Source: Trichocoleus desertorum ATA4-8-CV12
GTDB lineage: Bacteria > Cyanobacteriota > Cyanobacteriia > FACHB-46
Assembly: GCA_019358975.1 (NCBI GenBank)
Contig: JAHHIL010000001.1
Coordinates: 1 to 64,000, forward strand
Direction: 5' to 3'
DNA length: 64,000 bases
Both the position numbers and the translations under genes were made by a program. Of this stretch, positions 346-15,441 are shown piece after piece; position 1 is the stretch's first letter; every line of letters begins with the position of its first letter. Under the pieces are notes generated by a model. That model saw nothing but the letters and a program-made list of their open reading frames with translations. It was not told the origin of the DNA and made no database searches.

Positions 346-825
346 CTACTTACGGCGAATCCGCAGCTTTTGACGCCGACGATTGGTTGCAATCACAGCA
401 CGGTCAACTGGAAAACCGGGAAGTGGTATAACCTGGTACTTCCGTTCTTCTTCTAGCTGCCTTAGCTCTGTGTAATCTACCCAGTGGATGCAATCTACTG
501 GACAAGTGTCAATTGCTTCTTGGACGATGTCTTCTGCATCACCATCTTGCCGAATTACCCGCGATCGCCCGTAGTCTGGCTCAATGTAAAAGGTATTTCG
601 AGCCACATGAGCACAATGTTTGCAGCCGATGCAAGTAATCTCATCGACATAGACCCCCTTCTGCCTGAAGCTGCCCCCTAGTTCTGGTTCTAAGCCAGAG
701 CGTTGTGACGCATCGCGCCAATGCCCCCCTAGTTCTGGTTCTAGACCAGTCCGCAACTCTGCTTGGCCTTCACCCGGCAGATGTGCGCTGTTAGGGTCAG
801 CAAAAGGTGAAGTAAAGTCAGACAT
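346..825 (-). CDS. 4Fe-4S ferredoxin of the DUF1257-linked type
   Basis: Small iron-sulfur electron carrier of 159 residues. Four cysteines can ligate one 4Fe-4S cluster: a CIGCKHC group followed about 40 residues later by CPVDC. A basic tail (RRRQKLRIRRK) closes the protein. The ATG at 825 overlaps the TAA of the upstream DUF1257 gene (TAATG) and has a GGAG six to seven bases before it, so I prefer it to the in-frame TTG at 837. The N-terminal half carries the motif GLEPELGG twice, 17 residues apart, from an in-frame 51-bp duplication; cyanobacterial relatives, as I remember them, have one copy. Its partner proteins and electron donor are unknown. The family call is confident, the role is not. 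Confidence 0.9.
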   Translation of the reverse strand: MSDFTSPFADPNSAHLPGEGQAELRTGLEPELGGHWRDASQRSGLEPELGGSFRQKGVYVDEITCIGCKHCAHVARNTFYIEPDYGRSRVIRQDGDAEDIVQEAIDTCPVDCIHWVDYTELRQLEEERKYQVIPLPGFPVDRAVIATNRRRQKLRIRRK

Positions 826-1211
826 TAGGCACTCCAACGCTGTAGCACTAAGCGAACTGAGCCATCCTCATTTTTTTGCTGTTCTGCAACTTGAAAGCCT
901 GATTGAGCGCCTTCGTTGACAATGGTGTGGTAAGCGTAACGCTGGGTCACCTTGTTCAGGAAGCGATCGACAGACCAATTTTGTTGCCAGAATTGCAGAT
1001 CTGCTACCAGCTCGTAGGCGCTACCATTCCAGCTAAAGCCAATGTCGTAGCCGTTCTTTTGTTCAATGGTGACGTCAGCAGTTGTGGTCTGCCCACGATA
1101 CCCTCTGACTGCCTGAGGCCCAGACTTCCATTCCAGCCCTAGGTCGTTCAAGGCTGCTTCTAGAGATTTAAGGTTGCGGATTTGAGTTTTAATTTGGCTA
1201 AAGTGTGACAT
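825..1211 (-). CDS. ycf35: DUF1257 protein, Ycf35-like
   Basis: A 128-residue protein starting MSHFSQIKTQIRNL, characteristic of the DUF1257 family found in cyanobacteria and as Ycf35 in some algal plastids. No catalytic motif is evident; the centre (residues 50-85) is rich in Trp, Tyr and Phe. Function is unknown. It sits between a DUF2997 gene 46 bp upstream and a 4Fe-4S ferredoxin whose start codon overlaps its stop, so the three are almost certainly co-transcribed and the last two translationally coupled. The conserved association suggests an electron-transfer or iron-sulfur-dependent role, which is inference. Confidence 0.9.
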   Translation of the reverse strand: MSHFSQIKTQIRNLKSLEAALNDLGLEWKSGPQAVRGYRGQTTTADVTIEQKNGYDIGFSWNGSAYELVADLQFWQQNWSVDRFLNKVTQRYAYHTIVNEGAQSGFQVAEQQKNEDGSVRLVLQRWSA

Positions 1212-1257
1212 AGTTTTTTTGTCAAAAAATCAAATAGAACAGAACTGGACAAACAAC

Positions 1258-1467
1258 TTACCACTCACTAAAAGTAGCTTGAGTTGAGACTGTTGCCGAC
1301 TGTTGCACAGTTGCAGCAAAAAACTCTGAGGTTGGCTCGTGGCTGAGCACCTGTCCCAGCTGAGCTTCGATGGCTGCGGTAACTTCAGCACAAGAGTTAC
1401 CTACAATCCCGGTTACTTTTTCCAGGACCCGACCATCTGGGTAAATAACAAACTCCAATGTTTCCAT
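1258..1467 (-). CDS. DUF2997 family protein
   Basis: Small protein (69 residues from the chosen ATG) opening METLEFVIYPDGRVLEKVTG, typical of DUF2997, a family that accompanies DUF1257 in cyanobacteria. The start at 1467 fits the usual family N-terminus; an in-frame ATG at 1509 would add 14 unlike residues, and neither has a clear ribosome binding site. The tail after about residue 50 is Thr/Ser/Gln-rich. It is the first gene of the leftward trio with ycf35 and the ferredoxin. No function is known. Confidence 0.8.
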   Translation of the reverse strand: METLEFVIYPDGRVLEKVTGIVGNSCAEVTAAIEAQLGQVLSHEPTSEFFAATVQQSATVSTQATFSEW

Positions 1468-11323: not shown

Positions 11324-12055
11324 ATGATGGGTGAAGAAAATCAGCTAGAGAACATTCAAGATCTGACAGTTGATGACTCCGGAGCCTCGGAAGCAGCAGT
11401 CAACCAAACCATGTCAACAGAAGCGGATTCAAACTCAGAAGCATTTAACTTGGATTTTGAAGCCAGTGAAGATAGTCCTACGGCTTCAGGCTCAGACAGT
11501 GGAACAGGTCTAGAGTCAGAGAACGCTGCTGGTGGGTCTGAGTATCAAGCAGCCCTAGAAGATCTCACTCAAGAAGTGCAGTCTCTGAAGACTCAAGTAG
11601 AGGAGCGCACCAATCAATACGTCAGGATTGCCGCCGATTTTGATAATTTCCGCAGACGGGCTCAGAAAGAGAAAGAAGAACTAGAAGACAAGATTAAGTG
11701 CTCTACCATTACCGAGTTGTTGCCTGTAGTAGACAACTTTGAGCGGGCTCGTTCCCAAATCAAACCGCAAACTGACGGTGAGATGAGTATTCATAAGAGC
11801 TATCAAAGTGTTTATAAGCAACTGGTAGACTGCTTGAAGCGGGTGGGAGTCTCACCGATGCGCTCTGAGGGCAAAGAGTTTGACCCAAATCTGCACGAAG
11901 CAGTGATGCGAGAAGCGACAGACGAGCATCCAGAGGGCACAGTGATTGAGGAATTAGTTCGAGGTTATGTCCTTGGCGATCGCGTTTTGCGCCATGCCAT
12001 GGTGAAAGTTGCTGCGGCTCCAGACCCCGTGGTAACCTCTGAGGAGGGTGAGTGA
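11324..12055 (+). CDS. grpE: Nucleotide exchange factor GrpE
   Basis: Co-chaperone that releases ADP from DnaK. The first about 85 residues are acidic, Ser-rich and probably disordered. A long coiled coil follows (about 85-140, with [15 protein letters not shown]), then the C-terminal beta domain ending near [17 protein letters not shown]. At 243 residues it is longer than enterobacterial GrpE because of the N-terminal extension, as in other cyanobacteria. Two adjacent ATG codons open the frame (11324 and 11327). First gene of grpE-dnaK-dnaJ. Confidence 0.96.
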
Positions 12056-12256
12056 GGTCATGGAGACAGCTGATAGGCTTTGATTTGACAGGAATTCTTG
12101 TACACTGCAGAGGCAATTACGGGTAGTCTAGCTTCTGAGTAATTAAGGATTGGTTCATCACGGAATCTCTAGGCGTAGCCGTTTACTGCCAACTGGGGTT
12201 CCACGTACGCTCAAGCTCTGTCCACTTCTGTTGTCCTACATTAACCGCCGCTAGCT

Positions 12257-14218
12257 ATGGGAAAGGTCATTGGTATCGACTTAGGCACGACAAATAGTTG
12301 TGTTGCTGTCTTGGAAGGCGGGCAACCAATTGTGATCCCCAACTCGGAGGGTGGGCGGACAACTCCCAGTATTGTGGGATTTGGTAAAGCTGGCGATCGC
12401 TTAGTTGGACAACTAGCTAAGCGTCAAGGCGTTACTAATGCTGAGAACACAATTTTTAGCATCAAGCGATTTATTGGTCGCCGCTGGGACGATACTGAGT
12501 CTGAGCGAGGTCGGGTTCCCTACGGCTGTATCAAAGGCCGAGACGAAACCGTTGATGTGCAAGTGCGTGGACGAACTTATACGCCCCAAGAGATTTCGGC
12601 CATGATCCTGCAAAAGCTCAAGCAGGATGCTGAAAACTATCTAGGTGAGCCTGTTACTCAAGCTGTCATTACAGTTCCAGCCTACTTTACCGATGCTCAA
12701 CGGCAAGCAACAAAGGACGCAGGGACGATCGCTGGCTTGGAAGTGTTACGCATCATCAATGAGCCTACTGCTGCGGCCCTTTCCTACGGCCTAGACAAAC
12801 AAGATCAAGACCAACGAGTTTTGGTATTTGACTTAGGCGGCGGCACCTTTGATGTTTCCGTCTTACAGCTAGGCGACGGTGTATTTGAGGTCAAAGCTAC
12901 TGCAGGCAATAATCACCTTGGTGGAGATGACTTTGACAACTGCATCGTCCGCTGGATGATCGATTGCTTCCGAGATCAAGAAGGCATTGATCTTTCAATG
13001 GATAAGATGGCGTTGCAGCGTCTGCGAGAAGCAGCCGAAAAAGCCAAGATTGAACTTTCAAGTACAGTCACCACCTCCATCAATCTACCTTTCATCACGG
13101 CAGATGAGACAGGCCCTAAACACCTAGAAATGGATCTGACTCGTGCCCAATTTGAAGAACTGGTAGGTCATTTGGTTCAGGGAACAATCGATCCCGTAAC
13201 CCAAGCCCTGAAAGATGGGGATCTTAAAACGGATGACATCGATCGCATCATTTTAGTGGGTGGTTCGACTCGGATTCCAGCGGTACAAGAAGCAATCCGA
13301 AAATTTTTGGGGGGTAAAGCTCCCGATCGCTCGGTCAACCCTGATGAAGCAGTTGCCTTAGGAGCCGCGATTCAAGGGGGAGTGTTGGGTGGAGAGGTCA
13401 AAGATTTGCTGCTCTTGGATGTGACCCCCCTATCTCTAGGGATTGAGACCTTAGGGGAAGTGTTTACCAAGGTGATTGAGCGGAATACCACCATTCCGAC
13501 TAGCAGAACTCAAGTCTTTTCTACGGCGACAGATGGTCAAACCTCGGTAGAGATTCACGCTCTCCAAGGCGAACGAGCTATGGCTAGAGACAACAAGAGC
13601 TTAGGCAAGTTCCAACTCACGGGTATTCCCCCAGCCCCTCGTGGTGTCCCTCAAATCGAAGTAGCTTTTGATATTGATGCCAACGGCATTCTAAAAATCT
13701 CAGCTCGTGATAAAGGCACAGGACGAGAACAAAGTATTCAAATCACGAATACAGGTGGCTTGAGTGAGAGCGAAATTGAGCGCATGCGGCAAGAAGCATC
13801 GATCTTCGCGGATGAAGACGTTAGACGCAAGCAAGTTGTAGAGCTGAAGAACCAGGCAGACAGCTTGTTCTATAGTTACGAGTCTACAATTAGAGACAAT
13901 GGTGCTTTGATCAGTGATGACGTCAAGACTCAAGCTAAAGAAAGAGCGGTAGAGTTGCAAGCAGCTCTTGCCGATCGCTCCATTAGTGTTGAGGAGATGA
14001 AGCAACGGCTTGATACTTTCCAGCAAACCTTGTTTGCGATCGGAGCAGCCGTTTATGAGCAAGCGGCTAGTTCTGATGACACCCGGGATTACTCCTTTAC
14101 GGAAGGTGACTCCACCTCCGATGGCAGTGGTAAGGTCCAATCTGCTCAAGATGAAGATGAAGGCTTCAACTTCGAGGATGATGATACAGTAGCTGCTGAC
14201 TACGAAGCCATTGACTAG
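12257..14218 (+). CDS. dnaK: Molecular chaperone DnaK (Hsp70)
   Basis: ATP-driven chaperone of 653 residues. The N-terminal ATPase domain starts [22 protein letters not shown], with a second signature [13 protein letters not shown] near 193-205 and a third, [13 protein letters not shown], near 334-346. The substrate-binding domain follows from about 390 and the helical lid from about 505. The tail is very acidic and ends DYEAID. Cyanobacteria carry several DnaK paralogues; linkage to grpE and dnaJ suggests the main stress-responsive copy, but I did not assign the paralogue number. Gaps are 201 bp from grpE and 95 bp to dnaJ. Confidence 0.97.
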
Positions 14219-14313
14219 CTCAGGTAATAGAGTCTTGCTCCACTCTATTTGACGATTTATTTCTTGACTTCCTACCCTTTTCGTATCCTCAATTAACCCC
14301 AGAACAGCATTCT

Positions 14314-15441
14314 ATGGCCCGCGATTACTATGAAATACTTGGTGTCTCTAGAGACACAGACAAGGAGGAAATTAAGCGTGCCTACCGTCGCTTAGCACGG
14401 AAGTACCATCCTGACGTGAATAAAGAGGATGGAGCTGAGGAACGCTTTAAAGAAATTAACCGGGCTTACGAAGTGCTTTCTGAGCCAGAGACTCGCGCTC
14501 GTTACGATCGCTTTGGTGAAGCAGGAGTCGGTTCCGCTGCGGGAGCGGGCTACCAAGACTTCAGCGATATGAGCGGTTTTGCAGACATCTTTGAGAGCTT
14601 CTTCAGTGGCTTTTCTGGAGGTGCAGGCTCGACAGGCCGTAGACGCGGTGGCCCAGCGAGAGGGGATGACCTGCGACTCGATTTAAAACTAGACTTCCGG
14701 GACGCAGTTTTTGGGGGCGAAAAGGAAATTCGCATTAGTCACTTAGAAACTTGTGCCACTTGCAGCGGTTCAGGGGCTAAGCCAGGGACTAGACCGCGCA
14801 CCTGTTCTACCTGTACGGGTTCTGGACAAGTGCGTCGCGCTACTCGAACCCCGTTTGGTAGTTTTACTCAAGTCTCGGTTTGCCCTACCTGCAATGGTTC
14901 TGGGCAAGTGATTGAAGACAAGTGTGAAGTTTGTAGCGGCAATGGCCAAAAGCAGGAAACGAAGAAGCTAAAGATTACGATTCCTGCGGGGGTAGATAAT
15001 GGGACTCGGTTGCGAGTTTCGAGTGAAGGCGATGCGGGTCAACGCGGTGGCCCTCCAGGCGACCTTTATGTTTACCTCTTTATTAACGAAGATCCTGAGT
15101 TTCAACGAGATGGCATCAATGTCCTTTCGGAGATCAAAATCAGCTATCTTCAAGCAATCTTAGGGTGTCGCTTGGAAATAAGTACAGTGGATGGCCCCAC
15201 TGAACTGCTGATTCCACCTGGAACCCAGCCCAGTACCGTGCTGACCTTGGAAAATAGAGGTGTGCCGCGCCTGGGAAATCCAGTCAGTCGAGGAGATCAT
15301 CTGATTACCATTTTGATTGACATTCCTAATCGGATCACGACGGAAGAACGAGAGCTACTAGAAAAACTCGCTAAAATTAAAGGCGATCGCACTGGGAAAG
15401 GCGGTCTAGAAGGATTTCTCGGAGGACTATTTCGCGGATGA
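14314..15441 (+). CDS. dnaJ: Chaperone protein DnaJ (Hsp40)
   Basis: Type I J-protein of 375 residues that stimulates DnaK ATPase and delivers clients. J-domain at 1-70 with the HPD motif in KYHPDVNK; Gly/Phe-rich linker at about 75-115; four CxxCxGxG zinc repeats ([32 protein letters not shown]) at about 147-215; then the C-terminal beta domains. Its stop overlaps the ATG of the following TusA-like gene by four bases, so translation of the two is probably coupled. Confidence 0.97.

Follow-up and report, generated by a model that had tools for sequence, protein, structure and literature searches.

The closest described system to the locus analysed here is 'cluster g' of Synechocystis, formed by duf2997, ycf35 and fed7 (PMC4284462). 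The passages of that paper on the cluster assign Fed7 to a Fed1-FTRc-Fed7-glutaredoxin 2 pathway and describe its interaction with the DnaJ-like protein Sll1384; they also report that it matters under iron limitation and under oxidative, metal and salt stress, and that its deletion leaves photoautotrophic growth intact. The same passages do not discuss Ycf46 and give no role to Ycf35 or DUF2997, and the words 'repeat' and 'N-terminal' are absent from the cluster g text, so the tag described below is not mentioned there. According to a passage of PMC8875361, SigD is required for the ycf35, ssl1263 and fed7 transcripts in standard conditions.

In green algae and plants, the DnaJ-Fer proteins resemble the arrangement proposed here in coupling a Fed7-like ferredoxin domain to Hsp70/GrpE, but the coupling is made by fusion to a J domain; those of green algae interact with Hsp70B and Cge1 (PMC3564930, passages on DnaJ-Fer). 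They are reported as undetected in red algae, which retain plastid ycf35 (PMC3564930, PMC5940233), and the presence of plastid ycf35 and ycf46 differs significantly between marine and freshwater red algae in the relevant passage of PMC5940233. This plastid counterpart of Ycf35 had been pointed out in a first-pass annotation of the DNA, which also took Ycf35 to be free of a published role. Indeed, neither a role for Ycf35 or DUF2997 nor a mention of an 'EPELGG' tag was found in the literature searched, largely limited to non-subscription papers; earlier work on Ycf35 and Ycf46, or on the tag, may be found in other papers. The trio itself is in print as cluster g, and what is new here is its membership in a module, the sharing of a tag and the match between clades.

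The trio in the window and across oxygenic cyanobacteria

The window, a stretch of 64,000 nucleotides from Trichocoleus desertorum ATA4-8-CV12 (GCA_019358975.1, positions 1 to 64,000 of contig JAHHIL010000001.1), contains the same three families as cluster g in the order duf2997, ycf35, fed7, by which the cluster is defined in PMC4284462 (passages on the cluster; Table 1).

Table 1. Position of the trio genes and of the ferredoxin motifs in the window
Feature	Position	Strand	Basis
DUF2997 gene	1258-1467	-	PF11211, 76.1 bits (cut-off 24.1); 69 aa from Met at 1467
DUF1257/Ycf35 gene	825-1211	-	PF06868, 159.1 bits (cut-off 22.2); 128 aa
Fed7-type single-[4Fe-4S] ferredoxin gene	346-825	-	Fer4_13 (PF13370), 68 bits (cut-off 24.5)
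Tandem tag, ferredoxin N-terminus	673-747	-	GLEPELGG at 747-724 and again at 696-673; alignment of relatives
Ferredoxin cluster-binding region	490-633	-	CxxCxxC codons 633-613; CPVDC codons 504-490

Three minus-strand ORFs and their Pfam matches (Fer4_13, PF06868, PF11211) bear out the first-pass description of 346-1467 as a one-strand unit encoding a single-cluster ferredoxin and two uncharacterised proteins. The stop/start overlap it had noticed belongs to the Ycf35/ferredoxin pair, which shares one base (TAATG), and the same overlap is present in 22 of the 30 trio loci examined. The DUF2997 ORF opens at 1509, and its relatives start at Met 1467 in the alignment. The first codon of the ferredoxin ORF is a TTG at 837, and translation probably starts at the ATG at 825. 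This protein has a single [4Fe-4S] domain with the pattern CxxCxxC...CPxxC and adjoins ycf35, and is assigned to the Fed7 type by family, context and cysteine pattern rather than by alignment to Synechocystis Fed7; by position, the last cysteine of CPVDC matches the extra cysteine C100 of Synechocystis Fed7, as numbered in a passage of PMC4284462.

From 117 genomes sampled in the phylum, 49 belong to the class of the window and were taken as oxygenic cyanobacteria. A Fed7-like gene is present in all of these, and in 49/49 DUF2997, DUF1257 and Fed7 are colinear on one contig. The gap between DUF1257 and Fed7 does not exceed 410 bp, and that between DUF1257 and DUF2997 does not exceed 319 bp, except in one genome with 1,934 bp (G109). 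The linkage is far beyond chance, although these counts, like all tag counts below, are uncorrected for kinship. The first-pass proposal had been made to depend on linkage persisting outside close relatives; it is kept throughout the class, but the link to the ferredoxin is lost beyond it.

Next to the trio, BioU, (S)-8-amino-7-oxononanoate synthase, is encoded divergently at 1830-2873 on the plus strand (NF047886, 636 bits, cut-off 600). About 10 kb from the trio, also on the plus strand, are grpE, dnaK and dnaJ-like genes (11324-15441), and pilB/T/C-like genes sit in between. Trio and grpE are 20 kb apart or less in only 7/49 genomes of the class, and their closeness was dropped as evidence.

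DUF1257 and DUF2997 in AAA+ modules

A genome scan yielded 19 loci whose records lack the label of an ordinary cyanobacterium; they include Obscuribacterales, Sericytochromatia and a doubtful 'Chloroflexaceae' bin (L130). By simple ORF calls, as in all counts given here, a Ycf46-like AAA+ gene is present at 15/19 of these loci, DUF2997 at 15/19 and an Hsp70-like gene at 9/19, the host bins including Nitrospirae, Chloroflexota, Planctomycetota, Armatimonadota, Asgard and methanogens. DUF1257 and DUF2997 thus belong to a bacterial and archaeal module with a Ycf46-like AAA+, often with Hsp70- and GrpE-like genes, a membership that is new here. In two cyanobacterial modules, the GrpE-like genes scored 26.1 and 28.1 bits, just over the Pfam cut-off of 25.8. 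Outside oxygenic cyanobacteria, the ferredoxin is absent from the DUF1257/DUF2997 linkage and AAA+ genes are linked instead. In the trio cluster of the window, no Ycf46-like AAA+ gene was found, a candidate (Ycf46-2) being on another contig, and the operon has no Hsp70- or GrpE-like gene, the ordinary grpE-dnaK-dnaJ genes being those 10 kb away.

These results bear on the dedicated, undescribed electron-transfer step that the first-pass annotation had suggested, in which Fed7 would be the carrier, Ycf35 and DUF2997 would accept electrons from it or dock it, the tag would serve only for this docking, and no AAA+ or chaperone would take part. Fed7 is part of the FTR-Fed7-glutaredoxin pathway in the cluster g passages of PMC4284462, the linkage of the trio is strict, and Cys26 of DUF2997 (codon 1392-1390) is invariant in 22/22 aligned relatives from bacteria and archaea, all of which would suit such a step. 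However, outside cyanobacteria the pair and the tag are found with HEAT, receiver and FGE-like proteins and with AAA+/Hsp70/GrpE, without a ferredoxin, and in cyanophages the pair occurs with no Fed7 gene. Electron transfer alone fails for the family because DUF1257 and DUF2997 are linked to AAA+, and often to Hsp70/GrpE, outside oxygenic cyanobacteria, and we consider it an unlikely explanation of the trio. What stands of the first-pass reading is the conserved, operon-like unit with a one-cluster ferredoxin, and that Ycf35 and DUF2997 lack a role in the literature searched; the unit itself is in print, and Fed7 has published partners (PMC4284462, passages on cluster g).

The genome of the window contains three DUF1257 genes. 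One adjoins a Ycf46-like AAA+ gene (Ycf46-1, contig C47), a pairing present in 20/20 loci fetched for that type. The AAA+ and DUF1257 families of this pair are the same as those of the module, but its members fall in other clades than the AAA+ and DUF1257 on the trio side, and the loci seen have neither DUF2997 nor the tag. Another DUF1257 (L003, C5:207579-207851) is of the Ycf46-1-partner type without an adjoining AAA+ gene.

Some minor features of the modules were also observed. Those of the untagged type often include a small radical-SAM-like activase gene: the copy at L096 14360-14959 matches Fer4_12/Radical_SAM, and others were recognised by sequence likeness in L104, L127, L132, L148, L152, L196 and L197. 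The 892-aa Ycf46-like AAA+ of G101 (L075 1035-3713) carries a long insert in the P-loop region that looks intein-like, and a 557-aa ORF of G097 (L072 2702-4375) has a DUF1257 domain behind a NACHT-like/HEAT-like region.

A tandem N-terminal tag shared with Anaerolineae modules

In the alignment of relatives, the one constant element of an otherwise variable Fed7 N-terminus is a tandem (S/T)G(L/F/Y)EPELGG repeat, which the first-pass annotation had not mentioned in the window (747-673). Two strict copies are present in 35/41 Fed7 ORFs and one copy in 6/41 (some genomes are counted twice), and picocyanobacterial Fed7 has a single copy only. The same tag opens three genes that follow an Anaerolineae module (L141) composed of AAA+, DUF1257, DUF2997, GrpE-like and Hsp70 genes. 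We then searched 400 genomes of the phylum of L141, 5 of them with DUF1257, and 121 genomes of its order, 8 of them with DUF1257 (three known before). Strict tandem tags were found at 6 of the 7 testable Ycf35-type Anaerolineae modules (11/307 ORFs), while the other-type Chloroflexota loci had none (0/7 loci, 0/304 ORFs) and all other loci had them only on ferredoxins (35/3,815 ORFs). The idea of the tag arose at two of these seven modules (L124 and L141), the remaining five having been drawn afterwards. The seventh module (L215) shows strict single copies plus variants, and an eighth (L116/L204), whose contig ends after DUF2997, was excluded.

The tagged Anaerolineae proteins are mostly HEAT or receiver proteins, with no ferredoxin among them. 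In several genomes, tagged genes are also found on contigs other than that of the module, where the tag is again N-terminal and precedes HEAT repeats, receiver domains or FGE-like domains. Among the non-cyanobacterial modules outside Cyanobacteriota and Anaerolineae, the tag was not found, with the exception of L130, which has a tagged Fed7. This is probably a contamination or a transfer, since the Ycf35 of this bin falls inside cyanobacteria in a DUF1257 tree of 157 rows.

We scanned 80 whole genomes with a DNA pattern representing the tandem tag and, for control, with the reversed pattern, which had matches in 0/80. In cyanobacteria, the tag pattern was found at the Fed7 gene in 41/49 genomes; it matches solely the ferredoxin site in the genome of the window, and one genome (G039) has an extra match that is not N-terminal. 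In the Anaerolineae order, the tag was found in 7/8 genomes with the module, the exception being G532, which lacks the strict tandem pattern, versus 1/19 genomes without detected DUF1257 (Fisher p 7e-5, uncorrected for kinship). Genomes with other-type modules had it in 0/4. The single tagged genome without detected DUF1257 (G543), where the tag looks genuine, and the shortness of the tag would fit a chance likeness or a general motif that has nothing to do with DUF1257. Nevertheless, we hold a coincidence to be very improbable considering the difference between 7/8 and 1/19, the silence of the reversed pattern, and the position of tagged genes inside modules, which in L214 flank DUF1257 on both sides.

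A second tag was observed in cyanobacteria, in modules that we call the third type. Their neighbouring genes encode proteins starting with DAVLGG...VLGG and bearing HEAT, WD40, LRV, pentapeptide or FGE-like domains; by eye, such neighbours are present at 19/34 third-type loci versus 0/24 Ycf46-1/DUF1257 loci. Strong matches to the DAVLGG N-terminal domain (>90 bits) were found in 10/117 genomes, all ten with third-type DUF1257. The eleventh third-type genome (G111) has only weak matches, and the contig with its module breaks off at 3 kb. G085 is assigned to the third type by module content, its DUF1257 being a long branch. We suggest that the two tags are homologous, because they share position, tandem form and HEAT/FGE architecture.

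The third-type modules are patchy in occurrence. Effector-deploying NTPase systems exist, and the modules could be conflict or sensory systems of this kind, the trio being a domesticated remnant with the ferredoxin as effector or sensor. This would agree with the patchiness and with the variable, multi-copy tagged proteins carrying repeat and FGE-like domains. On the other hand, the trio is universal in the class rather than patchy, and no specific defence family was matched: anti-phage defence models gave 0 matches for the three window proteins, and the sole matches were those of the AAA+, to IetA models and weakly to mad8, and of a WD40 protein, to HEAT-ARM_XIII. Such an origin therefore has little probability in our assessment.

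Ycf46-2 as a candidate AAA+ partner and the proposed adaptor

An orphan Ycf46-like AAA+, Ycf46-2, is encoded in the genome of the window on another contig (C3:45102-46622) and is present in 48/49 genomes of the class, being missing in G105. The AAA+ tree has 41 rows, which remained of a 57-row tree once 12 near-copies and 4 rows that were long or odd (including the picocyanobacterial L223) had been removed; the 57 rows had been drawn from 110 AAA+ ORFs, with the Ycf46-1 and third-type groups sampled to 8 each. In this tree, Ycf46-2 groups with the AAA+s of the Anaerolineae modules (bootstrap 99 / SH-aLRT 94), both are joined by the third-type AAA+s (100/100), and the whole is apart from Ycf46-1 and from the untagged modules. 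The DUF1257 tree (49 chosen rows, leaving aside long branches and both picocyanobacteria) shows the same arrangement, with Ycf35 and Anaerolineae grouped at 95/84 and the third type joining them at 89/85, under the threshold of 95. It replaced a first tree of 157 rows, which was poorly resolved and whose careful search was incomplete. In these trees, the DUF1257s of the tag-associated groups form one clade and the AAA+s of the same groups form another, so that the trio's DUF1257 and its candidate AAA+, Ycf46-2, share clades with the tagged modules, the one DUF1257 branch at 89/85 included.

No DUF1257 or DUF2997 gene was found near Ycf46-2 in 14 loci. Three genomes (G095, G107 and G114) have Ycf46-2 together with the trio's DUF1257 as their only DUF1257. 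We suggest that Ycf46-2 is the natural AAA+ partner of the trio, because the trees match and it is present in 48/49 genomes, including those where the DUF1257 of the trio is alone.

We propose that the trio is a derived branch of the widespread Ycf46-like AAA+/DUF1257/DUF2997 module, often accompanied by a divergent Hsp70 and a GrpE-like factor, a reading that we judge to have about as much for it as against it. Its observed basis is the linkage, the sharing of the tag and the grouping of the tag-associated DUF1257s and of their AAA+s. The Ycf35 and DUF2997 pair would recognise client proteins by a tandem tag at their N-terminus, (S/T)GxEPxLGG, a reader role suggested by what the trio shares with the Anaerolineae modules, namely DUF1257, DUF2997 and a tagged protein. 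The cyanobacterial client would be Fed7, whose tag precedes the [4Fe-4S] domain. The pair would connect tagged Fed7 to Ycf46-2 and to the Hsp70 system of the cell, in an action that may be called chaperone-like solely by the company of the genes. The Fed7 cluster, published as oxidant- and iron-responsive, might then gate or report on the protein-remodelling activity, and the invariant Cys26 of DUF2997 may add a redox switch. A coupling to Ycf46-2 and Hsp70 fits the interaction of Fed7 with DnaJ (PMC4284462, passages on cluster g) and that of DnaJ-Fer with Hsp70B and Cge1 (PMC3564930, passages on DnaJ-Fer).

Several observations speak against an adaptor of this kind. The trio operon lacks AAA+, Hsp70 and GrpE genes, and the Ycf46-2 loci lack DUF1257 and DUF2997; there are single exceptions among genomes (G532 without the strict tag, G543 tagged without detected DUF1257, G105 without Ycf46-2). 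Moreover, the picocyanobacterial tag is single, no ferredoxin is found among the Anaerolineae clients, one branch has 89/85, DUF1257 has no informative fold relative, and the fed7 deletion keeps photoautotrophic growth in the cluster g passages of PMC4284462.

The AlphaFold2 model of DUF1257 has a pLDDT of 92.2, and its comparison with the PDB gave no clear relative (best E 0.048). Structure comparison values did not exceed Z 6.1, with KA1-like and appendage-like domains among the rows. A likeness to Bcs1-type AAA+ chaperones was discarded as not significant (Z 4.4 for 6sh3 and E about 0.05 for viral chaperones). For DUF2997, the model was of poor quality (pLDDT 58.9). When solved structures were searched by sequence, DUF1257 had none at E 10, DUF2997 stayed at chance level and Fed7 found ferredoxins.

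SspB and ClpS are tag-reading AAA+ adaptors. They are similar to the proposed reader in their logic, in which a small adaptor recognises a short tag at a terminus and hands its bearer over to an AAA+, but no relation in sequence, and no clear one in fold, was found, and degradation is not implied here. If the adaptor exists, cyanobacteria and Anaerolineae would have a recruitment code in common. With a tag in common and an orphan AAA+ to match, these three conserved unknowns become a machine that can be tested, which raises the questions of which protein reads the tag, what becomes of Fed7 and why this ferredoxin is linked to iron and oxidative stress. In a broader and more doubtful version, a tandem N-terminal (E/D)-(P/A)-x-L-G-G code, read by DUF1257-DUF2997, could bring proteins with no other relationship (the ferredoxin, response regulators, and proteins of the HEAT, WD40, pentapeptide and FGE-like kinds) to an AAA+/Hsp70/GrpE machine that has gone unrecognised. 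Plastid Ycf35 would then be the last relic of this reader, and in green plastids DnaJ-Fer, a J-domain fusion, would have taken over the task of linking ferredoxin and Hsp70.

Ycf35-like matches were also found in 15 phage and virus records, with genes in the Prochlorococcus phages P-SSM2, P-SSM5 and P-SSM7 and in nine marine virus records, and the phage collection yielded no Fed7-like match. The DUF1257 fold has a good match to one entry of a viral library (A0A7S5REL3, E 2e-9). The Ycf35-like genes of P-SSM2 and P-SSM7 each overlap a DUF2997 gene, and since this pair has no Fed7, DUF1257 and DUF2997 can travel without the ferredoxin. An adaptor function would give a reason for cyanophages to carry a two-gene reader. 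Both overlapping pairs are annotated as hypothetical (L255 3802-4381 in P-SSM2 and L256 3832-4384 in P-SSM7).
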